A stretch of 36,997 nucleotides of DNA. Origin: Planctomycetaceae bacterium (GTDB taxonomy: Bacteria > Planctomycetota > Planctomycetia > Planctomycetales > Planctomycetaceae). A program made the translations under genes and the position numbers. The notes below the pieces were generated by a model that was not told the DNA's origin, did no database searches, and saw nothing but the letters and a program-made list of their open reading frames with translations. The stretch lies in contig JAKFWA010000002.1 of assembly GCA_021732995.1 (NCBI GenBank), positions 1 through 36,997 of the forward strand, in the 5' to 3' direction. This document shows, in pieces, positions 7,650 to 36,997 of the stretch (position 1 is its first letter; each line of letters opens with the position of its first letter).

Positions 7650-7746
7650 ACGAAGTCCGTTTACTCTCAGGAATACGACGCGGCGAGCCGCGTACTTCGG
7701 ATTATAAATCGCTGACCAATATCCTCGGCTCGCCTCAGTGGACATC

Positions 7747-17400: not shown

Positions 17401-20400
17401 TCACCGGCGCCAGCGTCACGCTGAACGCACTCACGGGCATCGGGGCGACGAGCGTCAGTGGCAACCTCGAAATTGATGCGACTACGGTTGTCGCGACCAA
17501 CACGACCAATAACGGCATCTTTCTGAATTCCGTCGGCTCCGGGGGCGTGTCAATCACCGCCAACGCTCAATCGTCCGGCGCGATTGAGATCATCGGCTCG
17601 ACCGAAACAGTGACTCTGGCAGATCTTGATACTGGCAACGGCGCCGTTACCGTCACGCTTACTGGTCAGGATTTGATTGCCTCTGACATCGTTGCGCTCG
17701 GCACCAACCAGGATATCACCCTCACGACAACCACCAGTGGTAATATCAGCATCGGGGCGCTGTCCGCTGTCGGCGATTTAGTATCGATCAACTCTGCAGG
17801 AGCAGTCACAGACGCAAACGCCGCCGCGAATAACGTGACTAGCAACAACCTCCGTATCACCGGGAGCAGCGGTGTCGGAACGGCCGCCAACCCCATTGAG
17901 TCGACGGTTTCCGCGTTTGAAGCGTCTGACGGTTCAGTGGGAGTGTTCCTGTCGAACACGGGCGCCCTGACAATCGGTATCACCAGCGGCCTTACGGGCG
18001 TTTCGGCAACATCAGGTGATATCTCCATTAGCGCCGCATCGCTCACCGATACCGAGACAATCAGTACAGGCGGTGCCGGGACGATTTCGCTCACGAGCAC
18101 TTCCGGTTCCATCGCCATTCAGGCTGGAGTCTCCTCCGGATCCGGGAATATCACAATCGCGTCGGCCACATCGTTAACGCAGGCTGATAGCATCGTGATT
18201 TCTTCGACCGGTGGCTCCATCAATCTGTCGACCGGTTCATCAAGCTCGCTGACCATCAATGGCAGTGTAACGACCACTGGCTCAGGCACGTTAACGCTGA
18301 ACAGCGCCAATGCGATCCAACAGGATGCGAATTCCCTGCTACAGACGGTTGACGGCACGATTACGTTGACGTCGGCGGCCGGTGGTGTTCGCGTACATAC
18401 GGTCGAATCCACCAATAACGCGACGATCAGTATCACGGCCACAAATTCGACGATCACTGAAGTGGATAACACGGCACGCGTCGGTGCGGCCGGAAGCACG
18501 AGCCTGCTGGTACTGTCCGCCACCAGCACCATTGGCGGCGGCGGCACGGCGGCGCTGAATACGGACGTCGGAACGTTGCGAGTTACCGGCGGCGCGGATG
18601 TGCTGATCACGGAAGCAACCGACGTGCAGTTGGGCAACGGAACATCCGGAGTCACAACCAGCGGCGGATCGATCACGATCTCGACGGTTGGCGGAGCAAT
18701 CACAACCGGCAATACGGTCACGACGACCGGCGCCAATGGTTCGATCACGCTGACATCCAGCTCCACCAAGAGTCTGACGCTCAGCCACAACGTCACCGCC
18801 AACGGTTCCGGACTGATCGATATCAATTCGGGAGCCGCGTTTACTCAAGCTGACGGGACTACACTGTCAAGCACCAGCGGCAACATCACGATTGACACGA
18901 CGGGCGTGAACACGCTGACGGTAAACGGCGATGTCACGACTGGCGGCGCCGGGGCGATGACTCTGACCGCATCGAACGCGATTGTGATGGACGGCGATTC
19001 GCTGTTGAGAACTTCTACCGGCAATCTGACACTGACCTCGGCTGCGGGCAACGTTACTACTGACGTCGTCGAATCAACCGGCGGTGCAACAATCAGTATC
19101 AATGTCGCGTCCGGTTCGATTTCCGAGTTCGATGATAATTCTCGCATTGGAGTGGGTGGCGCGGGAAAAGCATTATTGAAAGGCACGAGCGTCGGTGGCA
19201 CCGGAAGTGCAGCACTTAATCTGGCTGTAGCAAACGTGGAAGGAGTTTCGGCGGCGGATGGGTTTTACGTGTCGAACACTGGTGCTTTGACGGTCGGCAA
19301 TGTGGATTCTGGCACGGTCGGCGTTTCCGCAACCGGAGCCATCGAGATCACCGCCAGCACGTCGCTCAGCATCACCGAAACCATCAGCAATTCCGCCAGC
19401 GGCGCGATCAAGCTGACCGCGACGACGGGAGACCTCACGTCGAGCGGGAAGATTCAATCGACCGGCGGTGCCGACATCATGCTGCAAGGCAAGAATGTCA
19501 CACTGAACGACAGCACGTCGAATCCGGATATCACAACGAACTTTTCCGGAAAGATCAGTATCAACGCGACTACCGACATTTCGGTAGGCCCCAGCTTCCA
19601 GTTGTCGGTTGCTAATGGTCAGATTGATCTGGTGGCTGGACAAGACATTCTCGCAGGCACGAACGCCTCGCTGACCGCGGCGAGCAACAGCCCGTTGAAT
19701 CTGACCGCGGGGCGGGATCTGACACTCAGTCCGAATGCCGCGATCAGTACATCCAACGGCGCGATGGTCGTTGATGTCGGCCGTGATGTCTTGATTGGAA
19801 TTGGTGCCAGTATCACCTCATCCGCGGGGACAATTTCGCTGACCGCTGACAACAATCTGACGCTCAGCAGTTCCAGCAGCCTGACGACTTCGGGAATGTC
19901 GTTATCAGCGGATGTCGCTGGCGCCACCACGATTGGCACATCCGCGACGATCAGCTCTAACGGCGGCACGCTCACGTTGCAGACCAATGAGTTCTCGCTC
20001 GACGCGACAGGTGCCTTCACCGCAACCACCGCAGGTCGAGCCATTCTGCGACCTCTGGCCGCGAATACCGGAATCGTCATCGGTACGAATCCTGGCACGG
20101 CTAACACCATTGAGATCTCAGCGACTGAGATGGGCCGCATCACGGCGAATGTGTTTGAATTGGGCTCGACCTCCACAGGCGCCATCGAGATCACGGCTTC
20201 TTCCAGCGCCAGCGTCGGCACAAGCTGGCATCTCATCACTGGCAGCTCGGTGACAACCACCGCTGGCGGCCTGACTGTGACGAATCTCGCGGTCTCGGCG
20301 GGGGCGGGTGTGAGCCTGACCGGCAGCAACAACGTCACTAATCTGGCTATCACCACGTCGGGGGCTGGCAGTATCAACTACAATGACAGTAGTGATATCA

Positions 20401-23400
20401 CCATTGCCACGTTCGACGGTGTGTCAGGATTGTCGACGACCAACGGCAATATCACGGTGACTGCCGCCGGCACGACAACGGTCAATCAGGAGATTGTGGC
20501 CCGAACAAATGGCACAGTGTCTTTGACCGCAAGCGCCAACAACATGGCGATCAACGCGGCTGTGTTGAGCACTTCAGCCAGCTCAGGAAACACGGCGGAC
20601 GGCACTGGCAGTCTGTCGTTCACGGTCTCAACAGGTTCGCTGACAACGACCGCCGCCATCGCCGGTGCGGCGGCGTCCAGCAACATCACGATGAATGCCC
20701 GCGATGGGATCACCCTGAGCGGCGCGAACGCGGATATCGCTACCAGTGGAACTTATACCGTTAACGCCGATACTAACGGCGATGACTCGGGAACTTACAC
20801 TCAGAACAATGCCGGGACGTCAGTGACGTTGGGTAATAACGCAGCCAGCATCACTGCGGCCGACTTCGACCTTACAGGCACGCTGGATGTCGGGTCGGGA
20901 ACAGTGAGTCTGGCAACCAGTGCCGTACAGGGTGTCGGAATTGGAGCTGGAGTTGCCGGTGGCTTTAACGTCTCGGACGCGGAACTTGGTCGAATCACTG
21001 CCGGCACATCGGTGACTATCGGCGGGGCCAACGCGAACGCGATTACGGTCGACGGGCTGACGACGGGGAACACAGATTCGTTCCCACTACTGATTCTCAA
21101 CAGCACTCGTACGGGCGCTGGAGTTTCCTTCTCCGGCTCCGCCAGCACCCTTGCGGATAATACGAACCTCGACATCGACGTGACGAATGGCAACGTCACG
21201 TTCGCAGCCGCGCTCACGTTGGGCGCCGGTGGCGGCACACCCCAGGGAACCGGCAAGCTGGATATTGATTCGACCAGTGGTAACGTGAATGTCAACGCGG
21301 CACTGACAATCGGTTCAGGCGGTATTGATATCGACTCGCCGGGCAGTTTCACAAACTCGGCGGCACTGACCACCAGCGGCAACGTTTTGATCGTCGCAGA
21401 CACGCTGATTGACCTGGCTGCCAACATCAACGCAGTCACGGTTTCGGGGCAGACGATTACGTTGTCGTCGACGAATATCAATCTGGCGACCAATTTGAAT
21501 ACGCAAGCTGGCGTGATCAGTGTCAGCGGCTCCACGAAGCTGATTTCAAATACGTCGATTAACACCACGAACGGCAGTGCGACAGGTGCCAATATCACCC
21601 TGGGAGCAGTGACCGCTGAGCTGGCCTCGTCGTTTGAGACATTGACGATTAACGCGGGTACTGCCGGCGATATTACGATCAGCGGGCAGATCGGCGCGAA
21701 TCGCCTCGGATTGCTCACAGTCACGGAGGCTGATGATGTCAGCTTCACGAGCGCGAGTGCCGCGAACGTGCGCGGCTTGACGGTGGCTAACACAACAACG
21801 TTTACGTCGAACGGGCAACTCAATACTCAAACGGCAAGTATCGACATCACTGCCGATGGTGGCACTACCAGTATCAACCTGGCGGGCGGAGCTGACCTCA
21901 ATGGTCAGAACATGACATTGACAGCCGCTGCAGATATCTCCATTGGGGCGACAGTGCAGTCGACCGGCGCGACGACCGGGGAGACTGTCACGATCCGCGG
22001 TCTGACGAACGCTGCGACGATTGGTCTCGGCGTGCATGCTCCGAGCGATGTGGAGATCTCTGAAACCTCACTGGCGCGAGTCAATAATACTGTTTCTGCA
22101 GTCGTCGTCGGCCGTAGCGGAACTCAGACGGGTGCGATCACGATTGATGACAGTGCGGCCAATGACATTCTGACGCTCAACACCGGCCTGACTCTCAACA
22201 CGAACGGTGCTGGCGGTGAGCTGAATGTTCAAAGTTCGGTAACGACCAATGGGGCGTTCACGGCGAACGGCAGTCGCTCATCCTTCAATGTGGATGGTGG
22301 AGGCGGTGGAACGGTCACTATCACGTCCGGCGGTGGGGCGATCGCAATCAACGACACGATTGAATTCGTGAATGAAGGCGACGATCTGGCGCTGGTGTCC
22401 GGCGGTGGTTCGGTCGACATCAATGGGTCGGCCAACGCGAACACCACAGCGGCACGTGGCGAGGACATCATTATCACGGCAGGTGCGGGTAATGTGGCTC
22501 TGGGTCGGAGCGGGATGAGTGACACGCTGGGGGCCACGGGGACGGGTCGGTTGGGGGATGTGCGGATCGTGAGTGCGGCGAATGTCGACATTTACGCGAC
22601 GGTGACGGCGGGGCGGTTGCAGCAGACGGCCGGAACGGGAACGACGACGTTGCACGGGGCGCTGGATCTGGATAACGGTGCGGCGGGCGATGTGCTCGAT
22701 ATTGATAATACCAAAAATGTCACCTTCGCAGACGGGGCCAGTACGACGACGGCCAACGGCGGCAACGTCAACATCGACGGCACCGGCACGGGGAACCTGA
22801 CCATCGGCAGTGTGACCTTCACGCTGGCGGGCAGCTTCAGCGAGAGTGACTTCGTGCAGGTCAAGCTGGCGGGGGCGATCACGGCCACGGCCACCAGCTT
22901 TACGTTCAGCGATCCGACGGTGCTGGCAGCGGACGTGTCGCTGACGGCGGGGACGGTGACCTTCAACGGCACGGTGGACGCCACCAACGCCGGCCAGGAA
23001 TCGCTCACCATCAACGGCAACGCGGTGTTCGCCAACACGGTCAGCGGCACCAAGGCGCTCGAGTTCCTGACGGTGACCGGCACGACCTCGCTGAATACGG
23101 CGACGTTGTCAGCGGCGGGTGATGTGACGCTGCAGGGCGCGGTGACCTTGCTGCAGAACACGACGATCAACGCTCAGGACATTACGTTCGGTTCGACGCT
23201 GGATTCCTCCAGCGGCAATACGTTCTCGCTGACGGCGAATTCATCGGGTGCGGGCGTGACGACCTTCGGCGGGATCGTGGGCGGCACGGACAAGTTGAGC
23301 TTCATCACCACGAACGCGGACGGTCGTACGGACATCGCGGCCAATGTGAACGTGTCGTCGGCCACAGCCACGACGTTCAACGATGCGGTACTGCTGACGG

Positions 23401-26400
23401 GCGATGTGGTCATCGCTCAAGCGGGCACCGGCAACGTCGTGTTCGCCAGCACGGTGGATGGGAACGTCGGCACGGGCCGGGCACTCACGATCAACACGAC
23501 AACCGGTGAAACGGTCTTCAACGGCAACGTCGGTAACGATGCGCTGGGTGCGGTCTCGAACGACAACGGTCTGGCGTCGATCACGACCAACAGCACGGGC
23601 CTGACGCGCATCAACGCGGCTGTGATCCGCACGAGTGGCGATCAGACCTACAACGATCAGGTGCTGATCGACACCAGCACGACGCTGTCGGCCAACGATA
23701 CGACGTTCGCCAGCACGGTGAACTCGGCGACGGGTGAAACGAACGCGCTGACGATCAATTCGTCGGGCAGTGGTGTGACGACGTTCAATGACACCATCGG
23801 TGCGACGAACCGCTTGAGCTCACTGACGACGAACGCCGACGGCTCGACGGTGATCAACACGCCGACGCTGAACGTGAACGGCTCGGCCGAAACCTTCCTG
23901 GCCGACAACGTGACGTTCTCTTCCCCAACGCTGACGATCAGCCAGACGGGTTCGGGCAACGTCCACTTCGGCGGCACGCTCAACAGCGACGCCAGCCAGA
24001 CCCGGAATTTAGTGCTCACGCTGACGACGGGCACGGCGGACTTCGACGGCGCGGTCGGCGGCACGGACAAGCTGGCGAATCTCACCGTCACCAATGCCGG
24101 CACGGCCAACTTCGACAGTTCTTTAGCCGTGACGACGAACATCTCGCTGACCGCCGATGAAGTGAATTTCAATGGCGGCGCGAACACGGTCTCGACGAGT
24201 GGTGCCGGCACGCTGTTGATCGCTCCGACCACGGCCGGTCGCAATATCAACATCGGCAACGCGGCGGATGCGGGGGCCTCGACGCTGGACCTGATCGACG
24301 CGGACGTGGACGCGCTGGCCAACGGCTTCAGCGAGATCACGATCGGCCGCACGGCGGATGGCACGGGCACCATCACGGTGAATTCGTCGGTCTTTAAAGA
24401 CGACCTGCGACTGGTGGATGGCGCGTTGAGCTTCAACGGTCTGGACAACACCGGCAGTCGCGTGGTGGCCATCGCCCGCACGGGCGCGATCACCGACGGC
24501 GGCGCAGGTACGGACATCACGGCGACGAGCCTGCGACTGGATGCCATCACGGGCATCGGCTCAACGGACGGCCTCGATACGGCAGTCTCGACAGTCACGG
24601 CTCGCAACACGACGAGCGGCCTGCTGGACATCGACAACACGCTGGCTTCCGGCCTGACAATCGGCACGGTGGATGGCCAGAGCGGCGTCACGCTGACGGG
24701 TGGCGCGGCGGCGAATCTGCGGGTCACCAACAACGGTGCGCTGACGGTCAACCAGACGGTCAGCAACAGCACGGGCGGCAGCCTGACGCTGGCGGCCAGC
24801 GGCACGACGGCGACGGACGATCTGCTGGTGACGGTGGACGTGACCAACAGTGGCGGTAACGGTGCCGTGACGCTGGTGGCCGGTCACAACCTGACGCTCG
24901 GTGCGGGTGTCGACATCACCGCGACAGGCACCGGCTCAGTGACGCTGGGTGCGGGTGCGGCCTATGACCGCACGACGAGCCTGCCGATCAACGGCCACGC
25001 TCAAGGTTCGCTGACGATGAACGCCACGGCGACGGCGACGTCAGCGGACGGCAACCTGACGCTGACAGCCACCGAGCATGTGCAGCTCGCTCTGGTCAAC
25101 GCCAACAGCAACAGCGACGGCACGCTCGGCAGCATCGTGGTGCGAGCGGACTTCGCTGGCGCGGGTGGCGGCCTCAGCGACGGTACGGGTGCGATCACCG
25201 AAGTGCTGGCGGGTGAAGGTGCGAACCTGATCGGTAATCTGGCGACAGTGTCGGCAGCCAGCGGCATCGGTGCCGCGGATGACATCGACACGAACCTGAC
25301 GACACTGAACGTGGCGAACTCGACCAGCGGCGATGTGGTGCTGACCGAGATCGCCGGCGCGGGCGACAATGCTCTGATCGTCAGCGGCGCGGCCAACGTC
25401 ACCGGCAACATCGACATCCGCACGACGGACGGCAACCTGACTCTGACCGGTGCAGCGTCGACCACGACGACCGGCACGCTCACGCTGGTCGCCGGTGACA
25501 GCGACAACGACGGTAACGGCGATCTGGCCATCAATGCCTCGATCACCACCGCGGCTGGTCAGGTGACTCTGACCTCAGCGGGCAACGATGTGACGTTCAA
25601 TGCCGCAGGCGATGTGAACTCGACCAGCGGCACGGTGCAGGTCAACGCGGGCACGACCGGCGTGGGTCTGATCACTCAAGCCGATGGCGCGGTGATCAAC
25701 GCGGGCAGCGGCACCATCGACATCAACGGTATCGGCAACGTGACGCTGGGCAGCGTGCAGACGACGAACGCCACGGGCGCGGCGGTGGACATCGTCTCGA
25801 CGCAGGGCGCGATCCTGGACGGCGGCGACACCGACCGCGACATCATCGCCAACAGCGGCACCGTGACGCTGAATGCCGCGACCTCGATCGGCACCAGCTC
25901 CGGCACTGGTCAACTGGAAACACAGATCCTGACCCTCGACGCCACTGCCAACGCGGGCAGCATCTTCATCGCCGAGTTCGATGGCCTGACGCTCAACAGC
26001 GTGACGGCGACGGGCGCGACGAACGACGTGATCGTCAGCAGCACGACCGGCGACATCGCGGTCAACAGCGTGACGGCTCCGGACCTGATCCATCTGACGG
26101 CCAGTGCCGGCGGCATCGAGGAATCAGGAACCGACGCCGGTGCGGACCTGGTCGCCACCACGCTGGACCTGGACGCGACCGTGGGCATCGGCGACGACGC
26201 GCAGATCGAGTTCACTGCGACAACGATCACTGCGGACAGCACGGGCACGGGTGCGGTGAATCTGGCGAGCCTGGCCACGGGCGCCGTGACCGCCACCAGT
26301 CTGACGGCCGGCACGGGCAACATCACCTTCGATCAAACCGGCACACAGACGCTGCTGGTCACGAACGCCAGCGTGACGACGGGCGCCGGCGCGATCACGA

Positions 26401-29400
26401 TCACCAACAACGCCGCGACGACGATCACCGCCGCCAGCACCACCAACGGCAACATCGACGTCACCACCACCAGCGGCAACCTGACGCTGACGACACTGAC
26501 GGCCGGCGGCTCAGGCAACATCACGGCCAGCACGGTGACCAGCGGCAACATCACCGTGGATGTCCTCACCGCCGATGCCAGCACCGTCACCATCACCAGC
26601 GCCGGCACCATCAACGAAGCCGCCGCCGGTGACCCCGCCGCCGACATCAACGTCGGCTCCGGCACCATCGACCTCAACGCCGCCTCAGGCATCGGTAACA
26701 CACTCGCCATCGAACTCACCGGCAAGTCAATCTCCGCAGACACCACAACCGGCGCCATCGACCTCAATTCCCTCGCTACCGCTGGTACCGGCGCGGTAAC
26801 GGTCAGCAGCCTGAGCACGGACAACGGCGCGATCACCTTCGATCAAACCGGTTCGCAGACTCTGACAGTCACCAGCGCCACGATCACCGGCACCGGCAAC
26901 CTGCTGGTCACCAACGACGCCGCCACAACGATCACCAGCGCCTCAACCAATGTAGGTGACGCGACCTTCACGGTGACGGGCGGCGCTCTCACTCTGACGA
27001 ACGTCAGCACGACGGATGGTGACATCAGCGGAAGTGCCAGCGGTGGCTTGCTGACGGCCACGACACTCGTCGCAGGCGGAAACGGCCAGAACGTGACGCT
27101 GACTACGACCACCAGCGGCAACGTGCTGGTGGGTTCAATCACCGCAGACAGTGATTTAGTGACGATCAACAGCGTTGGAGCCATCAACGAAGATGCCACA
27201 GATGATGCGGCTGCGGACATCAGCGTCGGCACGGGCACTATTGACCTCAACGCGGGTACCGGCATTGGTAACTCTGCCGCGCTCGAACTGACAGGCCGCA
27301 GCATCAGTGCCGATACCACTACCGGCGTGATCGACCTCAACAGTCTGGCCACCGCGGAGACGGCGACGGTAACAGTCAGCAGCCTGAGCACCGCCGCCGG
27401 CAACGTGACTTTCGATCAAACGGGCGGCCAGGGGCTGAATGTCACCAGCGCCACCATCACCGGCGGCGCGGGCGATCTGGTGATTACCAATGATGCCACG
27501 ACGACGATCACGACAGCCAGCACCAACAACGGTTCGATCAACGTCACGGCCACCGGCGGTGATCTCACGGCGACGACACTGACGGCGGGTGGCACGAGCA
27601 AGAACATCACGTTGACGACGCTCACCAGCGGCAACGTACTGGTGGGGTCGGTCACCGCCGACGCGGATCTGGTGACAATCAACAGCGTCGGTGCGATCAA
27701 TGAATCGGGTGCCGACGCCGGCGCGGACATCAGCGTGGGCACCGGCACGATCGACCTCAACGCGGCCTCAGGCATCGGCAACACCTCGGCTCTGGAACTG
27801 ACCGGCAAGAGCATCTCCGCCGACACCACCACCGGCGCTGTCGATCTCAACTCGCTGGCCACGGCAGGCACAGGTGCGGTGACGGTCAGCAGCCTGAGCA
27901 CTAGCGACGGCGCGATCACCTTCGATCAGACCGGTTCGCAGACCCTGACGGTAACCAGCGCCACCATCACGGGCACCGGCAACCTGATCGTCACTAACGA
28001 CGCTGCCACAATCATCACCAGCGCCTCGACCAACGTGGGTGACGCCACCTTCACGGTGACCGGCGGCGCGTTGACGCTGACCAATGTCAGCACGACGGAT
28101 GGCGACATCAATGGAAGTGCCAGCGGTGGCTTGCTGACGGCCACGACGCTCGTCGCGGGCGGCACTGGCCAGAACGTGACGCTGACGACAACCACCAGCG
28201 GCAACGTGCTGGTGGGTTCGATCACTGCCGACAGCGACCTGGTGACCATCACCAGCGTCGGAGCCATCAACGAAGATGCCAGCGCGGACGCGGCTGCGGA
28301 CATTGACGTCGGCACAGGCACCATCGACCTCAATGCGGCCAGCGGCATCGGTAACACGGCGGCACTGGAACTAACCGGCAAGAGCATCAGCGCGGACACC
28401 ACAACCGGCGCGATTGACCTCAACAGCCTTGCGACGGCAGGCACGGGAGCAGTGACGGTCTCGTCGCTGAGCACCAACAACGGCGCTGTCACCTTCGATC
28501 AGACCGGTTCACAAACTCTGACGGTCACGACCGCGACGATCAGTGGCACTGGCAACTTGATCGTCACGAACGACGCGGCCACGACGATCACCAACGCCAC
28601 GACCAACGTGGGCGATGCCTCGTTCATTGTAACGGGCGGTGCGTTGACACTGACTAACGTCGCCACGACGGACGGCGACATCACCGCCAACGTCACCAGC
28701 AGCGATCTCACCGCAACCACTCTGGTGGCAGGCGGTACCGGCCAGAACGTGACGCTGACAACAACCACCAGCGGCAACGTACTGGTCGGTTCGATCACCG
28801 CTGCGAGCGATCTGGTGACGATCACCAGCGTTGGATCGATCAACGAAGATGCCAGTGCGGACGCGGGTGCGGATATCAATGTTGGTTCTGGTACCATCGA
28901 CCTCAACGCCGCTTCAGGCATCGGTAACACTTCGGCTCTCGAGCTGACCGGCAAGTCGATCAGCGCTGACACTACCACCGGCGCGGTCGATCTCAACTCC
29001 CTCGCCACCGCAGGCACCGGCGCGGTGACGGTCTCGTCCCTGAGCACCAGCAACGGCAACGTGACCTTCGATCAGACTGGCTCGCAGGCACTGGGCGTGA
29101 CCAGCGCCACCATCAGCGGCACCGGCAACCTGCTGGTCACCAACGATGCCGCCACGACCATCACCAGCGCCTCGACCAACGTGGGCGATGCCACTTTCAC
29201 GGTGACCGGCGGCGCACTCACCTTGACCAACGTCAGCACAACCGACGGCGACATCAGCGGTAGCACCAGCGGTGGCTTGCTGACAGCCACGACACTGGTC
29301 GCAGGTGGTACCGGCCAGAACGTGACGCTGACGACAACCACCAGCGGCAACGTGCTGGTGGGTTCGATCACCGCCGACAGCGACCTGGTGACGATTACCA

Positions 29401-32400
29401 GTGTCGGCGCGATCAACGAAGATGCCAGTGCGGATGCGGCTGCAGATATCAATGTTGGTTCCGGCACCATCGACCTCAACGCGGCCACTGGCATCGGTAA
29501 CACGGCGGCCTTGGAACTGACCGGCAAGTCCTTGAGCGCGGATACCACGACGGGCGCCATCGACCTTAATAGCCTCGCGACGACAGGCACGGGTGCGGTG
29601 ACGGTCTCGTCGTTGAGCACCAACAACGGCGCAGTCACGTTCGATCAAACCGGTTCCCAAACTCTGACGGTCACCAGTGCCACGATCAGCGGCACCGGCA
29701 ACCTGATCGTCACGAACGATGCCGCGACGACCATCACCAGCGCCTCGACCAACGTGGGCGACGCAACCTTCACCGTGACGGGCGGCGCGTTGACACTGAC
29801 TAACGTCGCCACGACGGACGGTGACATCGCCGCCAACGTCACCAATGGCGACCTGACCGCGACCGCGCTGGTGGCAGGCGGCACGGGCCAGAACGTGACA
29901 CTTACCACAACCACTAGCGGCAACGTGCTAGTCGGTTCAATCACCGCCGCCAGCGACCTGGTGACGATCACTAGTGTCGGCTCGATCAACGAAGATGCCA
30001 GTGCGGACGCTGGTGCGGACATCAATGTTGGTTCCGGCACCATCGACCTCAACGCGGCATCAGGAATCGGCAACTCTGCAGCGCTCGAACTGACCGGCAA
30101 GAGCATCTCCGCCGATACCACAACCGGCGCGATCGACCTGAACTCTCTCGCTACAGCCGGTACCGGTGCGGTGACGGTTAGCAGCCTGAGCACTGCCACC
30201 GGCAACGTCACCTTCGATCAAACCGGTTCGCAAACGCTGACGGTGACCAGCGCCACCATCACTTCAGGCGCCGGCAATCTTGTCGTGACCAATGACGCTG
30301 CGACGACCATCACCACCGCCACCACCAACGACGGCAACATCGACGTGACCACGACGGGTGGTAACCTGACGCTGACCACGCTGACAGCGGGTGGCACTGG
30401 CAACATCACGGCCAGCACTGTGACCAGCGGTGACATCACCGTTGCGATCCTGACGGCCGACGCCAGCACGGTGACGATTACCAGCGTCGGAGCCATTAAC
30501 GAGTCTGCCAGTGCCGATGCCGGCGCGGATATTAACGTGGGTTCCGGCACCATCGACCTCAACGCCGCTGCTGGCATCGGTAACACGAGTGCCCTCGAAC
30601 TGACGGGCAAGTCGATCAGCGCCGACACAACTACGGGCGCTGTCGATCTCAACTCACTCGCCACGGCGGGCACGGGCGCAGTGACGGTCAGCAGCCTCAG
30701 CACGGCGACTGGCAGCATCACTTTCGACCAGACCGGATCCCAAACCCTGACGGTTGTCAGTGCAACGATCAGTGGCGCCGGCAATCTGGTTGTCACGAAT
30801 GACGCCGCGACGACGATTACATCGGCCAGTACCAACGACGGTTCGGTTAACGTCACCTCGACCGGCGGCAATCTGACGGCAACTTCGCTGACGGCGGGCG
30901 GCACCAGCAGGAACCTGACGCTGACCACGGTGACCAGCGGCAACGTGCTGGTGGACTCGATTATCGCCGACGGCGATCTGATCACGATTACCAGTGCCGG
31001 TGCCGTCAACGAAGTGGGCGCTGGCGATGCCAGCACGGATATCAACGCGGGCAGCGGGACCATTGATCTGAACGCTGCGACCGGGATTGGAACGGTCAGC
31101 TCGATTGAACTCGTGGCGACCAGCATCAGTGCGGACAATTCAGGCTCGGGTAAAGTTGATATCAATAATAACTCGGCAGCCGCGACGACCATCACGACGC
31201 TCAGCACCGTCGGGTCCGATATCTCGTTCACTCAGGATGGCGGCGGCGATCTTTCGATCACTGGCGCGGTGACCAGCGGCAACGGCGGCACCAATGGCGG
31301 CAACATCACGATTGTGTCCACTGCTAACCTGACAGTCGCCGCGACGGGCAGCGTCAATTCGACGGCGGGAACGGGCGGCAGCGTCACGTTCACGAACATG
31401 ACTTTGCTGGGAACGATCACCGTTGGCACTGGCAACATCGTGCTGCAGGGTAACGGTCAAGACGTGATCATCGGCACGACTCTGTCATCGACGACCACCT
31501 CCATCATCCAGGCTCGTCGTGATGTCATCATCAGCGCTCTCGTCACGACGACGACCGGCACAGCGGACATCATGTTGAATGCCGACATCGACAACGATGG
31601 CGTCGGTGGCGTGTGGATTCAGGCGGCTGGCCAGGTTGTGGCTGGTCGAGATACCACCGCCACTGGCTCCGATGTGTTTAACACCGCCGGAGTAGTTGAA
31701 AGCATCAACTTGGTTGCGGATGGCACCAATCAGCAGATCATGGCCAACCGCAATATATCGCTGACCAGCCGGGCTGCCGCGCCAGCCGATGCGGACATCG
31801 TACTGGATGGTCGAATCACGGCGACTACGGGCAGTATCGCTGCTGATGCCGCCAACCGGATCCTGCTGGGTGCCAACGAAAATGCTGGCACGAGCATCAC
31901 CTATTCCGACGCCGTCGTGCTGACCAACAGCGTGACGCTGACGGCCGGAACCAACGTGACGTTCCAGTCCACACTAAATGATGATGGAGCAGTCACAACG
32001 TCTGACCTGACTGTGAACGCCTCTGGAGTCACACGCTTCAACGGGACTGTGGGAACATCGCAAGCCATCGACAGCCTGACGACCAACGCGGCGGGTTCGA
32101 CCGAACTGGAAGGCAACGTCACCACCAAGAATGCGGTGACGTTCAACGATTCGGTGCTGCTGACAAACGATGTGATTGTCACCAGCAATACTTCGTCGGT
32201 GACCTTCAATGCCGCCATTGATAGCTCGACCGGTGAAACCAACTCGCTGACCGTGACAGCGACCAACGGTCAGGTGGTCTTTGACGGCAACATCGGCGCG
32301 GGCTCGTCGGGAGATCAGTCACTCGGAGGTCTGGTGGTAACTGGCGCTGTGGGAGTCACCTTCGGCAACAACGATGGCGTGGCTCAGATCCGTTCCAGCG

Positions 32401-35400
32401 GCAGCATCAATATCGGTAGCACGACTACGATTGGAGCCAGCGGCATCATACTCGACGGTAAGGCGTCGACACTCAGCATCACCACGACTGGCAACAGTGT
32501 GCGTTTCAATGGTGCGGTAACACTCAACACCGACACATCGATTGATACCGACTCAACTGACAATAATACGCAGGGTGGCAGTATCACCTTCACGAACGAC
32601 GCCCCGATCAATAGCCAAACGGCTGAAAATAACGATCTCACGCTGGATGCGGGCACGGGCAGCGTCTTCTTCAATGAGGACCTGGGCGGCATGCGTGCCT
32701 TGGGTGCGCTGACGATTTCAGAAGCCGATGGTGGAGTCACCTTCGGTGGCGCGAACTCGGAAACACCAGGCACAGGTGGTAGCGGTCCGGTCAATGTCAT
32801 TAATACCAACGAAGCGATTGATATCGGCGTTGGCGTGAATGGCATCAACGGCACGGGCATCATTCTGAACGGCAACAGCGGTGGTTTAACCATCACCACA
32901 ACTGGTGATTCGGTACGCCTCAACGGCGCGACGGTGCTCAGCAGCAATGTGACTATTAACTCAACCGGCGGCTTCGTGCAGTTAAATGGTTCGACCACCT
33001 TCAACGGCGAAGGCAACGACCTCACGATCAACTCGGCCAACGGCAATGTGGAACTCAACGGCACCATCAATGCCAACGCCACGACTGCCCGTGGCGAGGA
33101 CATCATTATCACGGCTGGTGCGGGTAATGTGGCGTTGGGTCGGAGTGGGATGAGTGACACGCTGGGAGCGAGTGGGACGGGTCGGTTGGGGGATGTGCGG
33201 GTGGTGAGTGCGGGGAACATGGACATCTACGCGGCGGTGACTGCGGGGCGGTTGCAGCAGAGTGCAGGGTCGGGGACGACGACGTTGCACGGGGCGCTGG
33301 ATCTGGACAATGGCGCGGCGGGAGACGTGCTGGATATTGATAACACGAAGAATGTCACGTTCGCAGACGGGGCCAGCACGACGACGGCCAACGGCGGCAA
33401 CGTCAACATCGACGGCACCGGCACGGGGAACCTGACCATCGGCAGTGTGACCTTCACGCTGGCGGGCAGCTTCAGCGAGAGTGACTTCGTGCAGGTCAAG
33501 CTGGCGGGGGCGATCACGGCCACGGCCACCAGCTTTACGTTCAGCGATCCGACGGTGCTGGCAGCGGACGTGTCGCTGACGGCGGGGACGGTGACCTTCA
33601 ACGGCACGGTGGACGCCACCAACGCCGGCCAGGAATCGCTCACCATCAACGGCAACGCGGTGTTCGCCAACACGGTCAGCGGCACCAAGGCGCTCGAGTT
33701 CCTGACGGTGACCGGCACGACCTCGCTGAATACGGCGACGTTGTCAGCGGCGGGTGATGTGACGCTGCAGGGCGCGGTGACCTTGCTGCAGAACACGACG
33801 ATCAACGCTCAGGACATTACGTTCGGTTCGACGCTGGATTCCTCCAGCGGCAATACGTTCTCGCTGACGGCGAATTCATCGGGTGCGGGCGTGACGACCT
33901 TCGGCGGGATCGTGGGCGGCACGGACAAGTTGAGCTTCATCACCACGAACGCGGACGGTCGTACGGACATCGCGGCCAATGTGAACGTGTCGTCGGCCAC
34001 AGCCACGACGTTCAACGATGCGGTACTGCTGACGGGCGATGTGGTCATCGCTCAAGCGGGCACCGGCAACGTCGTGTTCGCCAGCACGGTGGATGGGAAC
34101 GTCGGCACGGGCCGGGCACTCACGATCAACACGACAACCGGTGAAACGGTCTTCAACGGCAACGTCGGTAACGATGCGCTGGGTGCGGTCTCGAACGACA
34201 ACGGTCTGGCGTCGATCACGACCAACAGCACGGGCCTGACGCGCATCAACGCGGCTGTGATCCGCACGAGTGGCGATCAGACCTACAACGATCAGGTGCT
34301 GATCGACACCAGCACGACGCTGTCGGCCAACGATACGACGTTCGCCAGCACGGTGAACTCGGCGACGGGTGAAACGAACGCGCTGACGATCAATTCGTCG
34401 GGCAGTGGTGTGACGACGTTCAATGACACCATCGGTGCGACGAACCGCTTGAGCTCACTGACGACGAACGCCGACGGCTCGACGGTGATCAACACGCCGA
34501 CGCTGAACGTGAACGGCTCGGCCGAAACCTTCCTGGCCGACAACGTGACGTTCTCTTCCCCAACGCTGACGATCAGCCAGACGGGTTCGGGCAACGTCCA
34601 CTTCGGCGGCACGCTCAACAGCGACGCCAGCCAGACCCGGAATTTAGTGCTCACGCTGACGACGGGCACGGCGGACTTCGACGGCGCGGTCGGCGGCACG
34701 GACAAGCTGGCGAATCTCACCGTCACCAATGCCGGCACGGCCAACTTCGACAGTTCTTTAGCCGTGACGACGAACATCTCGCTGACCGCCGATGAAGTGA
34801 ATTTCAATGGCGGCGCGAACACGGTCTCGACGAGTGGTGCCGGCACGCTGTTGATCGCTCCGACCACGGCCGGTCGCAATATCAACATCGGCAACGCGGC
34901 GGATGCGGGGGCCTCGACGCTGGACCTGATCGACGCGGACGTGGACGCGCTGGCCAACGGCTTCAGCGAGATCACGATCGGCCGCACGGCGGATGGCACG
35001 GGCACCATCACGGTGAATTCGTCGGTCTTTAAAGACGACCTGCGACTGGTGGATGGCGCGTTGAGCTTCAACGGTCTGGACAACACCGGCAGTCGCGTGG
35101 TGGCCATCGCCCGCACGGGCGCGATCACCGACGGCGGCGCAGGTACGGACATCACGGCGACGAGCCTGCGACTGGATGCCATCACGGGCATCGGCTCAAC
35201 GGACGGCCTCGATACGGCAGTCTCGACAGTCACGGCTCGCAACACGACGAGCGGCCTGCTGGACATCGACAACACGCTGGCTTCCGGCCTGACAATCGGC
35301 ACGGTGGATGGCCAGAGCGGCGTCACGCTGACGGGTGGCGCGGCGGCGAATCTGCGGGTCACCAACAACGGTGCGCTGACGGTCAACCAGACGGTCAGCA

Positions 35401-36997
35401 ACAGCACGGGCGGCAGCCTGACGCTGGCGGCCAGCGGCACGACGGCGACGGACGATCTGCTGGTGACGGTGGACGTGACCAACAGTGGCGGTAACGGTGC
35501 CGTGACGCTGGTGGCCGGTCACAACCTGACGCTCGGTGCGGGTGTCGACATCACCGCGACAGGCACCGGCTCAGTGACGCTGGGTGCGGGTGCGGCCTAT
35601 GACCGCACGACGAGCCTGCCGATCAACGGCCACGCTCAAGGTTCGCTGACGATGAACGCCACGGCGACGGCGACGTCAGCGGACGGCAACCTGACGCTGA
35701 CAGCCACCGAGCATGTGCAGCTCGCTCTGGTCAACGCCAACAGCAACAGCGACGGCACGCTCGGCAGCATCGTGGTGCGAGCGGACTTCGCTGGCGCGGG
35801 TGGCGGCCTCAGCGACGGTACGGGTGCGATCACCGAAGTGCTGGCGGGTGAAGGTGCGAACCTGATCGGTAATCTGGCGACAGTGTCGGCAGCCAGCGGC
35901 ATCGGTGCCGCGGATGACATCGACACGAACCTGACGACACTGAACGTGGCGAACTCGACCAGCGGCGATGTGGTGCTGACCGAGATCGCCGGCGCGGGCG
36001 ACAATGCTCTGATCGTCAGCGGCGCGGCCAACGTCACCGGCAACATCGACATCCGCACGACGGACGGCAACCTGACTCTGACCGGTGCAGCGTCGACCAC
36101 GACGACCGGCACGCTCACGCTGGTCGCCGGTGACAGCGACAACGACGGTAACGGCGATCTGGCCATCAATGCCTCGATCACCACCGCGGCTGGTCAGGTG
36201 ACTCTGACCTCAGCGGGCAACGATGTGACGTTCAATGCCGCAGGCGATGTGAACTCGACCAGCGGCACGGTGCAGGTCAACGCGGGCACGACCGGCGTGG
36301 GTCTGATCACTCAAGCCGATGGCGCGGTGATCAACGCGGGCAGCGGCACCATCGACATCAACGGTATCGGCAACGTGACGCTGGGCAGCGTGCAGACGAC
36401 GAACGCCACGGGCGCGGCGGTGGACATCGTCTCGACGCAGGGCGCGATCCTGGACGGCGGCGACACCGACCGCGACATCATCGCCAACAGCGGCACCGTG
36501 ACGCTGAATGCCGCGACCTCGATCGGCACCAGCTCCGGCACTGGTCAACTGGAAACACAGATCCTGACCCTCGACGCCACTGCCAACGCGGGCAGCATCT
36601 TCATCGCCGAGTTCGATGGCCTGACGCTCAACAGCGTGACGGCGACGGGCGCGACGAACGACGTGATCGTCAGCAGCACGACCGGCGACATCGCGGTCAA
36701 CAGCGTGACGGCTCCGGACCTGATCCATCTGACGGCCAGTGCCGGCGGCATCGAGGAATCAGGAACCGACGCCGGTGCGGACCTGGTCGCCACCACGCTG
36801 GACCTGGACGCGACCGTGGGCATCGGCGACGACGCGCAGATCGAGTTCACTGCGACAACGATCACTGCGGACAGCACGGGCACGGGTGCGGTGAATCTGG
36901 CGAGCCTGGCCACGGGCGCCGTGACCGCCACCAGTCTGACGGCCGGCACGGGCAACATCACCTTCGATCAAACCGGCACACAGACGCTGCTGGTCAC
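14439..36997 (+). CDS. Giant repetitive beta-helical surface/secreted protein, 3' truncated by window
   Basis: A single open frame of at least 7,519 codons with no stop before the window edge. The start ATG 14439 has AAGGAAA about 8 nt upstream and an in-frame TAG at 14409. The N-terminus is basic and not a classical signal peptide (MLLTSWLQRLLHKHRSRSKQ). Residues 34-43, LTRLEDRIVM, resemble the LEPR-XLL/LEDR motif that opens many planctomycete giant exoproteins. The rest is Thr/Gly/Ala/Asn/Ser-rich, with short alternating strands such as GNITLT, GAVTVSSLST and TSGNITI. These read like filamentous-haemagglutinin-type right-handed beta-helix repeats, so adhesion or a cell-surface/matrix role is likely (inference). 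Recurrent motif: hydrophobic-acidic helix turn then (V/I)TIGRAxDG, at 15402, 16518, 17214, 24336 and 34971. Asp-rich DxDxDG-like loops at 25497, 31584 and 36132 may bind calcium. No catalytic, sorting or autotransporter domain is visible; the C-terminus is outside. Long antisense open frames are by-products of codon bias. Confidence 0.93.
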   Translation, partial: MLLTSWLQRLLHKHRSRSKQPTKPQAAKYARLGLTRLEDRIVMTVTVTTPNAGELQIDVTGANETATIEFDGSDFKFTSANDTTTQTVSGAAINKLTILGDAGASQTVDLLDDVALSAGFSIDAAVETSLINGSITGGPITISSASIGLNSNLTTSGSTVQLNGDVSIGAATVSLDTTNAGGSAAGADVTFGGKVDSDAAARSLSITAGTAGDVSFTGAIGSSNVLDDLTIAKADDITLTSASLSGDFSTTGRTFANSGAISATTALVETDTIALSGTVTADGGITLRPDTDSDTIGLGTGAAGTFNLTEAELQNLDSTGTVTIGRANGSAQVSIKAANLSGESYDLSVTGGTSDVTGLNMGSNDFSLTTTTGGITDGDGGAATNVTGATVSLQSAAAVGTSAEPIEIDATTLVATSNSGAGVFLTSVGTGGVAITASTAAASSPIQITGSTEDITLVDVTTTNGLVNVTVTDHDIIATKVSAGGATNNVTLTTSGSTNNRNITLGEVTAADDTITVLAAGAIQDAAGKVSATSLRMVASNGGIGAGGAITTAVTNVATSATNTTAISDDDDLVVNVVGGTSGVRTTANNGSISLSVASGTLSITQSITAHGSGSVTLDTGTGALSTAETINSTSGNITLISDSIALGANITSTGALLIQPTSDTVSIGLGGGAGSLNLIDTEIARFNDGFSSITIGRATGKHAVSIDSVTVNDPFTLRSPVAGGSISIVDTTAAGFGLKGSGNASLTIDGPSSTTTVSGNLITTGTKITISDSLVIAGNVSVDTTNGGIAPAGGDFQVTGTVNADTGVSTRQLTINTGTSDVLFDGAIGGTQALQTLSITKANDAKFGSTVVIGSGTGANASTLTVDTVTFSGGANSVTSNASGDLVLRPQTAAAAIDINITGGSGTFKLDSTAVDAIGSGFNLVTIGRAADGTGITTVGTANFETNVMVVGGQVAVSGLNTDGANATVTARTANITDRNSDATVDVTGASVTLNALTGIGATSVSGNLEIDATTVVATNTTNNGIFLNSVGSGGVSITANAQSSGAIEIIGSTETVTLADLDTGNGAVTVTLTGQDLIASDIVALGTNQDITLTTTTSGNISIGALSAVGDLVSINSAGAVTDANAAANNVTSNNLRITGSSGVGTAANPIESTVSAFEASDGSVGVFLSNTGALTIGITSGLTGVSATSGDISISAASLTDTETISTGGAGTISLTSTSGSIAIQAGVSSGSGNITIASATSLTQADSIVISSTGGSINLSTGSSSSLTINGSVTTTGSGTLTLNSANAIQQDANSLLQTVDGTITLTSAAGGVRVHTVESTNNATISITATNSTITEVDNTARVGAAGSTSLLVLSATSTIGGGGTAALNTDVGTLRVTGGADVLITEATDVQLGNGTSGVTTSGGSITISTVGGAITTGNTVTTTGANGSITLTSSSTKSLTLSHNVTANGSGLIDINSGAAFTQADGTTLSSTSGNITIDTTGVNTLTVNGDVTTGGAGAMTLTASNAIVMDGDSLLRTSTGNLTLTSAAGNVTTDVVESTGGATISINVASGSISEFDDNSRIGVGGAGKALLKGTSVGGTGSAALNLAVANVEGVSAADGFYVSNTGALTVGNVDSGTVGVSATGAIEITASTSLSITETISNSASGAIKLTATTGDLTSSGKIQSTGGADIMLQGKNVTLNDSTSNPDITTNFSGKISINATTDISVGPSFQLSVANGQIDLVAGQDILAGTNASLTAASNSPLNLTAGRDLTLSPNAAISTSNGAMVVDVGRDVLIGIGASITSSAGTISLTADNNLTLSSSSSLTTSGMSLSADVAGATTIGTSATISSNGGTLTLQTNEFSLDATGAFTATTAGRAILRPLAANTGIVIGTNPGTANTIEISATEMGRITANVFELGSTSTGAIEITASSSASVGTSWHLITGSSVTTTAGGLTVTNLAVSAGAGVSLTGSNNVTNLAITTSGAGSINYNDSSDITIATFDGVSGLSTTNGNITVTAAGTTTVNQEIVARTNGTVSLTASANNMAINAAVLSTSASSGNTADGTGSLSFTVSTGSLTTTAAIAGAAASSNITMNARDGITLSGANADIATSGTYTVNADTNGDDSGTYTQNNAGTSVTLGNNAASITAADFDLTGTLDVGSGTVSLATSAVQGVGIGAGVAGGFNVSDAELGRITAGTSVTIGGANANAITVDGLTTGNTDSFPLLILNSTRTGAGVSFSGSASTLADNTNLDIDVTNGNVTFAAALTLGAGGGTPQGTGKLDIDSTSGNVNVNAALTIGSGGIDIDSPGSFTNSAALTTSGNVLIVADTLIDLAANINAVTVSGQTITLSSTNINLATNLNTQAGVISVSGSTKLISNTSINTTNGSATGANITLGAVTAELASSFETLTINAGTAGDITISGQIGANRLGLLTVTEADDVSFTSASAANVRGLTVANTTTFTSNGQLNTQTASIDITADGGTTSINLAGGADLNGQNMTLTAAADISIGATVQSTGATTGETVTIRGLTNAATIGLGVHAPSDVEISETSLARVNNTVSAVVVGRSGTQTGAITIDDSAANDILTLNTGLTLNTNGAGGELNVQSSVTTNGAFTANGSRSSFNVDGGGGGTVTITSGGGAIAINDTIEFVNEGDDLALVSGGGSVDINGSANANTTAARGEDIIITAGAGNVALGRSGMSDTLGATGTGRLGDVRIVSAANVDIYATVTAGRLQQTAGTGTTTLHGALDLDNGAAGDVLDIDNTKNVTFADGASTTTANGGNVNIDGTGTGNLTIGSVTFTLAGSFSESDFVQVKLAGAITATATSFTFSDPTVLAADVSLTAGTVTFNGTVDATNAGQESLTINGNAVFANTVSGTKALEFLTVTGTTSLNTATLSAAGDVTLQGAVTLLQNTTINAQDITFGSTLDSSSGNTFSLTANSSGAGVTTFGGIVGGTDKLSFITTNADGRTDIAANVNVSSATATTFNDAVLLTGDVVIAQAGTGNVVFASTVDGNVGTGRALTINTTTGETVFNGNVGNDALGAVSNDNGLASITTNSTGLTRINAAVIRTSGDQTYNDQVLIDTSTTLSANDTTFASTVNSATGETNALTINSSGSGVTTFNDTIGATNRLSSLTTNADGSTVINTPTLNVNGSAETFLADNVTFSSPTLTISQTGSGNVHFGGTLNSDASQTRNLVLTLTTGTADFDGAVGGTDKLANLTVTNAGTANFDSSLAVTTNISLTADEVNFNGGANTVSTSGAGTLLIAPTTAGRNINIGNAADAGASTLDLIDADVDALANGFSEITIGRTADGTGTITVNSSVFKDDLRLVDGALSFNGLDNTGSRVVAIARTGAITDGGAGTDITATSLRLDAITGIGSTDGLDTAVSTVTARNTTSGLLDIDNTLASGLTIGTVDGQSGVTLTGGAAANLRVTNNGALTVNQTVSNSTGGSLTLAASGTTATDDLLVTVDVTNSGGNGAVTLVAGHNLTLGAGVDITATGTGSVTLGAGAAYDRTTSLPINGHAQGSLTMNATATATSADGNLTLTATEHVQLALVNANSNSDGTLGSIVVRADFAGAGGGLSDGTGAITEVLAGEGANLIGNLATVSAASGIGAADDIDTNLTTLNVANSTSGDVVLTEIAGAGDNALIVSGAANVTGNIDIRTTDGNLTLTGAASTTTTGTLTLVAGDSDNDGNGDLAINASITTAAGQVTLTSAGNDVTFNAAGDVNSTSGTVQVNAGTTGVGLITQADGAVINAGSGTIDINGIGNVTLGSVQTTNATGAAVDIVSTQGAILDGGDTDRDIIANSGTVTLNAATSIGTSSGTGQLETQILTLDATANAGSIFIAEFDGLTLNSVTATGATNDVIVSSTTGDIAVNSVTAPDLIHLTASAGGIEESGTDAGADLVATTLDLDATVGIGDDAQIEFTATTITADSTGTGAVNLASLATGAVTATSLTAGTGNITFDQTGTQTLLVTNASVTTGAGAITITNNAATTITAASTTNGNIDVTTTSGNLTLTTLTAGGSGNITASTVTSGNITVDVLTADASTVTITSAGTINEAAAGDPAADINVGSGTIDLNAASGIGNTLAIELTGKSISADTTTGAIDLNSLATAGTGAVTVSSLSTDNGAITFDQTGSQTLTVTSATITGTGNLLVTNDAATTITSASTNVGDATFTVTGGALTLTNVSTTDGDISGSASGGLLTATTLVAGGNGQNVTLTTTTSGNVLVGSITADSDLVTINSVGAINEDATDDAAADISVGTGTIDLNAGTGIGNSAALELTGRSISADTTTGVIDLNSLATAETATVTVSSLSTAAGNVTFDQTGGQGLNVTSATITGGAGDLVITNDATTTITTASTNNGSINVTATGGDLTATTLTAGGTSKNITLTTLTSGNVLVGSVTADADLVTINSVGAINESGADAGADISVGTGTIDLNAASGIGNTSALELTGKSISADTTTGAVDLNSLATAGTGAVTVSSLSTSDGAITFDQTGSQTLTVTSATITGTGNLIVTNDAATIITSASTNVGDATFTVTGGALTLTNVSTTDGDINGSASGGLLTATTLVAGGTGQNVTLTTTTSGNVLVGSITADSDLVTITSVGAINEDASADAAADIDVGTGTIDLNAASGIGNTAALELTGKSISADTTTGAIDLNSLATAGTGAVTVSSLSTNNGAVTFDQTGSQTLTVTTATISGTGNLIVTNDAATTITNATTNVGDASFIVTGGALTLTNVATTDGDITANVTSSDLTATTLVAGGTGQNVTLTTTTSGNVLVGSITAASDLVTITSVGSINEDASADAGADINVGSGTIDLNAASGIGNTSALELTGKSISADTTTGAVDLNSLATAGTGAVTVSSLSTSNGNVTFDQTGSQALGVTSATISGTGNLLVTNDAATTITSASTNVGDATFTVTGGALTLTNVSTTDGDISGSTSGGLLTATTLVAGGTGQNVTLTTTTSGNVLVGSITADSDLVTITSVGAINEDASADAAADINVGSGTIDLNAATGIGNTAALELTGKSLSADTTTGAIDLNSLATTGTGAVTVSSLSTNNGAVTFDQTGSQTLTVTSATISGTGNLIVTNDAATTITSASTNVGDATFTVTGGALTLTNVATTDGDIAANVTNGDLTATALVAGGTGQNVTLTTTTSGNVLVGSITAASDLVTITSVGSINEDASADAGADINVGSGTIDLNAASGIGNSAALELTGKSISADTTTGAIDLNSLATAGTGAVTVSSLSTATGNVTFDQTGSQTLTVTSATITSGAGNLVVTNDAATTITTATTNDGNIDVTTTGGNLTLTTLTAGGTGNITASTVTSGDITVAILTADASTVTITSVGAINESASADAGADINVGSGTIDLNAAAGIGNTSALELTGKSISADTTTGAVDLNSLATAGTGAVTVSSLSTATGSITFDQTGSQTLTVVSATISGAGNLVVTNDAATTITSASTNDGSVNVTSTGGNLTATSLTAGGTSRNLTLTTVTSGNVLVDSIIADGDLITITSAGAVNEVGAGDASTDINAGSGTIDLNAATGIGTVSSIELVATSISADNSGSGKVDINNNSAAATTITTLSTVGSDISFTQDGGGDLSITGAVTSGNGGTNGGNITIVSTANLTVAATGSVNSTAGTGGSVTFTNMTLLGTITVGTGNIVLQGNGQDVIIGTTLSSTTTSIIQARRDVIISALVTTTTGTADIMLNADIDNDGVGGVWIQAAGQVVAGRDTTATGSDVFNTAGVVESINLVADGTNQQIMANRNISLTSRAAAPADADIVLDGRITATTGSIAADAANRILLGANENAGTSITYSDAVVLTNSVTLTAGTNVTFQSTLNDDGAVTTSDLTVNASGVTRFNGTVGTSQAIDSLTTNAAGSTELEGNVTTKNAVTFNDSVLLTNDVIVTSNTSSVTFNAAIDSSTGETNSLTVTATNGQVVFDGNIGAGSSGDQSLGGLVVTGAVGVTFGNNDGVAQIRSSGSINIGSTTTIGASGIILDGKASTLSITTTGNSVRFNGAVTLNTDTSIDTDSTDNNTQGGSITFTNDAPINSQTAENNDLTLDAGTGSVFFNEDLGGMRALGALTISEADGGVTFGGANSETPGTGGSGPVNVINTNEAIDIGVGVNGINGTGIILNGNSGGLTITTTGDSVRLNGATVLSSNVTINSTGGFVQLNGSTTFNGEGNDLTINSANGNVELNGTINANATTARGEDIIITAGAGNVALGRSGMSDTLGASGTGRLGDVRVVSAGNMDIYAAVTAGRLQQSAGSGTTTLHGALDLDNGAAGDVLDIDNTKNVTFADGASTTTANGGNVNIDGTGTGNLTIGSVTFTLAGSFSESDFVQVKLAGAITATATSFTFSDPTVLAADVSLTAGTVTFNGTVDATNAGQESLTINGNAVFANTVSGTKALEFLTVTGTTSLNTATLSAAGDVTLQGAVTLLQNTTINAQDITFGSTLDSSSGNTFSLTANSSGAGVTTFGGIVGGTDKLSFITTNADGRTDIAANVNVSSATATTFNDAVLLTGDVVIAQAGTGNVVFASTVDGNVGTGRALTINTTTGETVFNGNVGNDALGAVSNDNGLASITTNSTGLTRINAAVIRTSGDQTYNDQVLIDTSTTLSANDTTFASTVNSATGETNALTINSSGSGVTTFNDTIGATNRLSSLTTNADGSTVINTPTLNVNGSAETFLADNVTFSSPTLTISQTGSGNVHFGGTLNSDASQTRNLVLTLTTGTADFDGAVGGTDKLANLTVTNAGTANFDSSLAVTTNISLTADEVNFNGGANTVSTSGAGTLLIAPTTAGRNINIGNAADAGASTLDLIDADVDALANGFSEITIGRTADGTGTITVNSSVFKDDLRLVDGALSFNGLDNTGSRVVAIARTGAITDGGAGTDITATSLRLDAITGIGSTDGLDTAVSTVTARNTTSGLLDIDNTLASGLTIGTVDGQSGVTLTGGAAANLRVTNNGALTVNQTVSNSTGGSLTLAASGTTATDDLLVTVDVTNSGGNGAVTLVAGHNLTLGAGVDITATGTGSVTLGAGAAYDRTTSLPINGHAQGSLTMNATATATSADGNLTLTATEHVQLALVNANSNSDGTLGSIVVRADFAGAGGGLSDGTGAITEVLAGEGANLIGNLATVSAASGIGAADDIDTNLTTLNVANSTSGDVVLTEIAGAGDNALIVSGAANVTGNIDIRTTDGNLTLTGAASTTTTGTLTLVAGDSDNDGNGDLAINASITTAAGQVTLTSAGNDVTFNAAGDVNSTSGTVQVNAGTTGVGLITQADGAVINAGSGTIDINGIGNVTLGSVQTTNATGAAVDIVSTQGAILDGGDTDRDIIANSGTVTLNAATSIGTSSGTGQLETQILTLDATANAGSIFIAEFDGLTLNSVTATGATNDVIVSSTTGDIAVNSVTAPDLIHLTASAGGIEESGTDAGADLVATTLDLDATVGIGDDAQIEFTATTITADSTGTGAVNLASLATGAVTATSLTAGTGNITFDQTGTQTLLV
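18138..19469 (+). repeat. Degenerate tandem duplication inside giant gene, ~222-aa period
   Basis: Unit a (about 18138-18803) and unit b (about 18804-19469) align at the protein level with a 666-bp offset. For example SLTQADSIVISSTGGSINLS matches AFTQADGTTLSSTSGNITID; NAIQQDANSLLQT matches NAIVMDGDSLLRT; ITLTSAAGGVRVHTVEST matches LTLTSAAGNVTTDVVEST. Divergence is substantial and small indels occur towards the end, so the outer limits are approximate. It is older than the other repeats in the gene. Confidence 0.6.
22455..26362 (+). repeat. Long direct repeat, copy 1 (22743-26362 identical, 22455-22742 diverged)
   Basis: Bases 22743-26362 (3,620 bp) match 33378-36997 with no difference that I could find by reading both copies. 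The preceding 22455-22742 aligns without gaps to 33090-33377 but with about 34 differences (roughly 88% identity). The offset is 10,635 bp, a multiple of three, so both copies encode the same peptide in the same frame. Copy 1 runs into the first unit of the tandem array. Confidence 0.9.
26325..31223 (+). repeat. Nine-unit tandem array with 510-bp and 573-bp units
   Basis: Each unit begins at the sequence encoding TFDQTG. Boundaries: 26325-26834 (510), 26835-27407 (573), 27408-27917 (510), 27918-28490 (573), 28491-29063 (573), 29064-29636 (573), 29637-30209 (573), 30210-30719 (510), 30720-31223 (about 504, most divergent). Shared core: INVGSGTIDLNAASGIGNT, IELTGKSISADTTTGAIDL, NSLATAGTGAVTVSSLST. 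The long form has 21 extra residues in the first half, where NVGDATFTVTGGALTLTNVS and the following TTDGDISGSASGGLLTAT replace the shorter GNIDVTTTSGNLTLTT. A half unit lacking the first part precedes the array at about 26100-26324. All units keep frame. Confidence 0.88.
33090..36997 (+). repeat. Long direct repeat, copy 2 (cut by the window edge)
   Basis: Second copy of the 22455-26362 segment: 33090-33377 is about 88% identical and 33378-36997 appears identical to copy 1. The window ends 38 bases into the sequence corresponding to tandem-array unit 1 (36960 equals 26325). The match therefore had not ended at the edge, and the true repeat is longer than 3.6 kb. Confidence 0.9.

Follow-up and report, generated by a model that had tools for sequence, protein, structure and literature searches.

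Giant genes occur in all 29 of the planctomycete genomes analysed in PMC5177795, whose account of gene sizes gives 36,239 bp for the largest gene of its strain NH11T. A second relevant system comes from Apilactobacillus kunkeei, in which giant surface-protein genes recombine: according to the recombination results of PMC12863079, tracts longer than 1 kb have a median length of 3.7 kb, and very low dS is read as recent homogenisation. A third concerns assembly rather than biology. In the simulation of tandem repeats in PMC6052550, as tabulated there, SPAdes scaffolds settle on two copies irrespective of how many there really are (of 20 rows, 14 give 2/2/2 and six give 0/2/2).

The locus of interest lies in a window (the whole stretch of DNA that was analysed, 36,997 bp) that forms the start of scaffold C15 (165,158 bp), in a 9.39 Mb genome of 135 contigs. 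The host is a planctomycete by its MetK, encoded in the window and used for this purpose after a search of genome_contigs had given no named relative of R: among the best 80 of 441 relatives, 79 carry planctomycete names (best identity 89%), on genus names that we take to belong to planctomycetes, and the remaining one is labelled just as a bacterium. The window contains a two-copy repeat, R, inside a giant gene. We consider it likely that parts of this planctomycete gene were recently homogenised with each other, and that the exactness and the copy number of the printed repeat were set by the assembler.

The locus resembles each of the above systems in part. At ~31.5 kb (>5 kb), in a planctomycete host with a large, planctomycete-like genome, the gene falls among the giant genes of PMC5177795; it differs in its near-identical internal segments, on which the relevant passages of that paper are silent. 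With the A. kunkeei genes it would share the combination of a giant extracellular repeat protein and recombination tracts. This is an analogy rather than a homology comparison, and the tracts described in that part of PMC12863079 run between strains, while here the exchange would have taken place between two parts of one gene. Finally, R exceeds the read span, as do the simulated repeats longer than the insert in PMC6052550; the motifs tabulated there are 100–500 bp with reads of 100 bp, whereas R is 3620 bp and sits on a 10.6-kb loop, and the assembler of this genome is deduced.

An exact repeat within one reading frame

The features of the gene that lie within the window are as follows.

14439..36997, + strand: 5' part of the giant ORF; 7519 codons in the window, continuing in the same frame past the gap to a stop at C15:46208-46210
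22743..26362, + strand: R copy 1; exact match
26363..31000, + strand: U1 array, units of ~573 bp (191 aa); diagonals at 573, 1146 and 1719 bp
31050..33254, + strand: D1; partner of D2 at C15:39440-41632
33378..36997, + strand: R copy 2; exact match, ending at the contig edge
36871..36997, + strand: last 127 bp of R; reprinted after a 100-N gap (C15:37098-37224) and also present at 26236-26362

The sequence-only reading had reported a mismatch-free direct repeat of 3.6 kb, 10,635 bp apart, within one coding frame. Base-by-base alignment of the two copies bears this out: 3620 of 3620 bases are identical with no scattered mismatches, the offset is a multiple of three (3 × 3545) and so keeps the frame, and a single ORF spans both copies, running from 14439 to the open window end. 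The second-longest exact direct repeat within the window is 59 bp. The abrupt switch in identity that had been placed at 22743/33378 is equally sharp on alignment, with the first left-side mismatch at 22742/33377, directly at the border of R. Silent sites are as uniform as the rest (0 differences over 989 synonymous sites); hence the identity is not a product of protein-level selection, a point on which the earlier reading was right, and selection was discarded as its source.

The order R-U-D occurs twice in the gene. The second set consists of R2, U2 (C15:37225-39440) and D2 (from C15:39440), and the segment between the two R copies, B (26363-33377), is made up of U1 and D1. Seven two-unit windows of U1 are 77–89% identical to the first. 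D1 and D2 are much further apart: 745 aligned columns show 51.7% amino acid identity, and the longest alignment of their DNA shows 65%. U and D having diverged, we rejected the idea that the 10.6-kb unit as a whole had simply been duplicated in tandem in recent times. Since D1 and D2 share only ~52% of their residues, the identity of R would be younger than the R-U-D super-units: the latter appear to be old, in contrast to the likeness seen in R and next to it.

The product is probably a giant, exported repeat protein. Pfam and NCBIfam gave no family at E 0.01 for three pieces covering 14439-33437, nor did these pieces have a curated-family match for a protein with the planctomycete export motif of the LEPR-XLL type. 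The N-terminus does contain LGLTRLEDRIV (an LEDR string, seen by eye and by pattern), which we take to resemble that motif; similar strings were found by pattern in the giant ORFs of seven of nine loci, while the remaining two have LEER close to their start. Two U units, modelled from seven window sequences, are all-beta (pLDDT 77.6, pTM 0.79); a PDB fold search with this model, which bears on a candidate beta-solenoid adhesin fold, returned 0 matches at E 0.001 (best E 0.21). The protein could form a long, beta-rich surface fibre.

The scaffold gap beside the second copy

The right end of R copy 2, where the window also ends, is the edge of a 100-N scaffold gap (C15:36998-37097) that lay out of sight of the sequence-only reading, and the 127 bp after the gap repeat the end of R exactly, the match stopping one base further. 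The sampled parts of the genome—C15 in full, 50 kb from C23 and, from other contigs, nineteen stretches of 20 kb, together ~0.6 of 9.39 Mb—contain three N gaps, at C15:36998, C23:17593 and C14:67710. All three have the same layout: (i) 100 N plus an exact 127-bp overlap, and (ii) a third occurrence of the overlap 127-mer at a direct repeat beside the gap. These direct repeats measure 3620 and 269 bp at the first two gaps and, within the sampled stretch, at least 301 bp at the third. In 499,158 bases of gap-free stretches, each searched within itself, every exact direct repeat was shorter than 127 bp, the longest being 117 bp.

We read this layout as an unresolved loop as it would be written out by a short-read assembler with k=127, copy 2 not being an independent assembly. 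Our assumption is that SPAdes, on leaving a loop, writes 100 N and keeps the k-mer overlap; a literature search found no specific description of that way of writing gaps. A single assembled R would then appear twice in the printed sequence, by way of the walk A-R-B-R. Because copy 2 ends in the unresolved loop, its freedom from mismatches is not independent evidence of identity. The sequence-only reading had offered duplication, gene conversion or artefact while treating the two copies as independent sequences; the possibilities it named stand best in combination, as homogenisation plus an assembly loop, but the independence of the copies very likely does not stand. More generally, identical repeats beside gaps in giant genes should be treated as assembler output, not as measurements.

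The gap also bears on whether the second copy exists. A pure artefact, in which the genome has one R and the second copy reflects misassembly or a mixture of strains, is highly improbable. The contig does end inside the repeat, and contamination is given as 4.23%, as such an artefact might predict; yet B joins R at both of its ends without any N at the junctions, all pieces lie in one frame, and on each side of R the two copies have homologous flanks, which is not expected of a chance misjoin. Indeed, the graph path enters and leaves B through R and thus needs R at least twice, so that the true number of R copies would be two or more. The repeat is probably real and recent, while its exactness and its copy number are probably assembler output.

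With the N and the overlap removed, the whole gene as printed is 31,545 nt long, or ~10,500 residues; the shared 127 bp are read as the same peptide on both sides of the gap. The other two gaps also fall in giant, repetitive ORFs (C23:17425-38583 and C14:57565-69998), which likewise carry 100-N loop gaps with 127-bp overlaps. The ORF on C23 has near its end a HELGHELG string, as in a metalloprotease.

Divergence around the repeat

Both sides of R have a homologous counterpart beside the other copy.

22455..22742, + strand: left flank, copy 1; differs from 33090-33377 at 34 of 288 bp (88% identity), with 26 of the differences on third codon positions
33090..33377, + strand: left flank, copy 2; partner of 22455-22742
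26363..26814, + strand: right flank, copy 1; differs from C15:37225-37676, past the gap, at 19 of 452 bp (96% identity), with 17 of the differences on third codon positions

The count of 34 on the left matches the approximate figure given in the earlier reading. Beyond the gap, homology to the right flank ends after 452 bp. From a dS of 0.43 in the 288 bp on the left, the value drops to 0 in R and stands at 0.15 in the 453 bp on the right (0.06 in the first 294 bp), with dN at 0.04, 0 and 0.01, respectively. In the printed sequence, then, a homologous but diverged block is abruptly interrupted by identity (88%, 100% and 96%), the pattern by which gene conversion is recognised. The longest identical runs in the flanks of R are 32 and 75 bp, both below 127 bp, and hence the borders of R fall where an assembly graph at k=127 would place them.

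How many differences could such a graph conceal? At the rates of the flanks, R is predicted to contain ~427 differences (from the left 288 bp) or 152 (from the right 452 bp); the nearest 294 bp on the right, with six mismatches, would predict 74. We set these figures against a toy model in which bulges are popped at k=127, with 4000 trials per setting and with assumed bulge limits of 381 and 600 bp that do not come from this assembler. At the 381-bp limit, 25, 40 and 60 differences were hidden in 43%, 3% and 0% of trials; at the 600-bp limit, the same numbers were hidden in 93%, 52% and 5%. By this model, 427 or 152 differences are far more than bulge popping could hide, and 74 only narrowly more. 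The R copies would accordingly be more alike than their flanks, with some room for hidden differences.

The same numbers bear on whether the printed sequence is simply right, with exactly two copies, identical in all 3620 bases through one very recent conversion or duplication. This is a reading to be taken seriously, though we lean against it. It accounts directly for the lack of differences in R, silent or otherwise, and the near-failure of the model to hide 60 differences requires the copies to be very alike. However, ~25 differences could pass unseen at either limit, the letters of copy 2 are not independent given the loop in which it ends, and the simulated scaffolds tabulated in PMC6052550 held two motif copies at true numbers of 2 to 5.

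Under the favoured reading of homogenisation seen through an assembly loop, the gene would have two old super-units, each R-U-D. A segment of ~4.4 kb (R and its near flanks) would have been made alike in both by homologous recombination inside the gene, either by gene conversion or by unequal crossover with later turnover. Two events are envisaged: an older, wider one (~4.4 kb) and a recent one (~3.6 kb), the last being too recent for silent changes to have appeared in R. A k=127 short-read assembler, unable to span R, would have assembled it once, walked A-R-B-R and, after writing 100 N, gone on from the loop to C with the k-mer overlap of 127 bp retained. It is the homologous but diverged flanks, together with the old divergence of U and D, that point to a real and recent homogenisation; that recombination caused the likeness of R is suggested by these sequence comparisons. 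If two near-identical copies of R are true, a single frame clearly contains a multi-kilobase segment much more recent than the sequence around it, and the giant genes of planctomycetes would be well suited to measuring conversion within a gene. A further idea, which we regard as improbable, is that R is an active exchange cassette: frequent R-R recombination would keep R uniform and shift the protein by steps of 3545 residues, such that the length of surface fibres might vary among the cells of one strain.

Homologous giant genes and their neighbours

Searches with the R protein gave hits in 23 of 150 family genomes (E 1e-20) and in 24 of 297 class genomes (E 1e-15), the own genome being included in both. 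Eight loci outside the own genome, chosen by their match to R, were opened, seven of them in single-contig genomes. In G108, a relative from the same family but another genus (~50 contigs), the giant protein has one series only, in which the C-terminal half of R is followed by roughly a single U unit, by D and then by the C-terminal part; the first half of R has no clear partner there. This comparison was made by 120-residue pieces, as whole-protein BLASTP without composition correction gave meaningless alignments of >8000 columns. The giant gene of G108 is split into two overlapping frames of 10498 and 3569 codons (G108:C7:36488-36825), through either a sequencing error or a real frameshift. 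In a further genome, G015, each half of R finds a match, at 57% and 48%, the matches being spread over two contigs. No R homolog was found at E 1e-20 in the same-genus genome G001, and for this reason the event cannot be dated.

The single R-U-D set of G108 bears on a layout of the form A(R-B)nR-C in which n is >1, R thus occurring three or more times, and of which the assembler printed the loop only once round. We think this unlikely. The loop layout at the gap is what it would produce, one pass of 10,635 bp stays in frame, and SPAdes scaffolds under-count the simulated tandem repeats tabulated in PMC6052550; against this, G108 has R, U and D about once.

None of the eight opened loci has an exact internal repeat near 3.6 kb, the maximum being 423 bp in G111. 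The longest repeats in the others are 224 bp (G055), 200 bp (G269), 98 bp (G053), 67 bp (G005) and 79 bp (the draft G108), while the giant genes of G164 and G149 have no exact internal repeat of at least 60 bp. G269, G111, G053 and G164 belong to one genus. Because repeat spacings differ across genera (examples are G055 with 3975 bp, G108 with 4737 bp and G269 with 1872 bp), the internal duplications look lineage-specific on present comparisons.

Patchy identity at silent sites is also seen in homologous giant genes at two gap-free, single-contig loci. The longest run without a silent change is 74 codons in G055 (matched in 0 of 5000 shuffles) and 66 codons in G269 (2 of 5000). In G108, such runs are not clearly longer than in shuffled sequences (529 and 164 of 5000), and the run in the own right flank is not longer either (1847 of 5000). 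The longest run of all, 142 codons in G111 (0 of 5000), was dropped as clean support for homogenisation: two 10-N runs border the 423-bp repeat and the ORF is split beside it, so this repeat may itself be an assembly fault.

Downstream of the giant ORF, on the same strand, lies a very large gene with the kinase string HRDLKPEN (C15:46313-53320). A same-strand HRDLKPEN gene follows the giant ORF in all nine loci (own, G108, G055, G005, G269, G111, G053, G164 and G149), which were chosen by R match. Six of these genes were scanned with Pfam: WD40 is present in 6/6, and Pkinase in at least five (for G164, 25 of 30 families were listed). The two products may act together at the cell surface. Elsewhere in the window, an ORF of 1207 aa at positions 106-3729 (− strand) matched nothing in Pfam at E 1e-5. 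Positions 7738-9501 (+ strand) encode a protein with a caspase-like (Peptidase_C14) and an FGE-sulfatase domain, adjoining a protein-kinase gene at 5049-7541.
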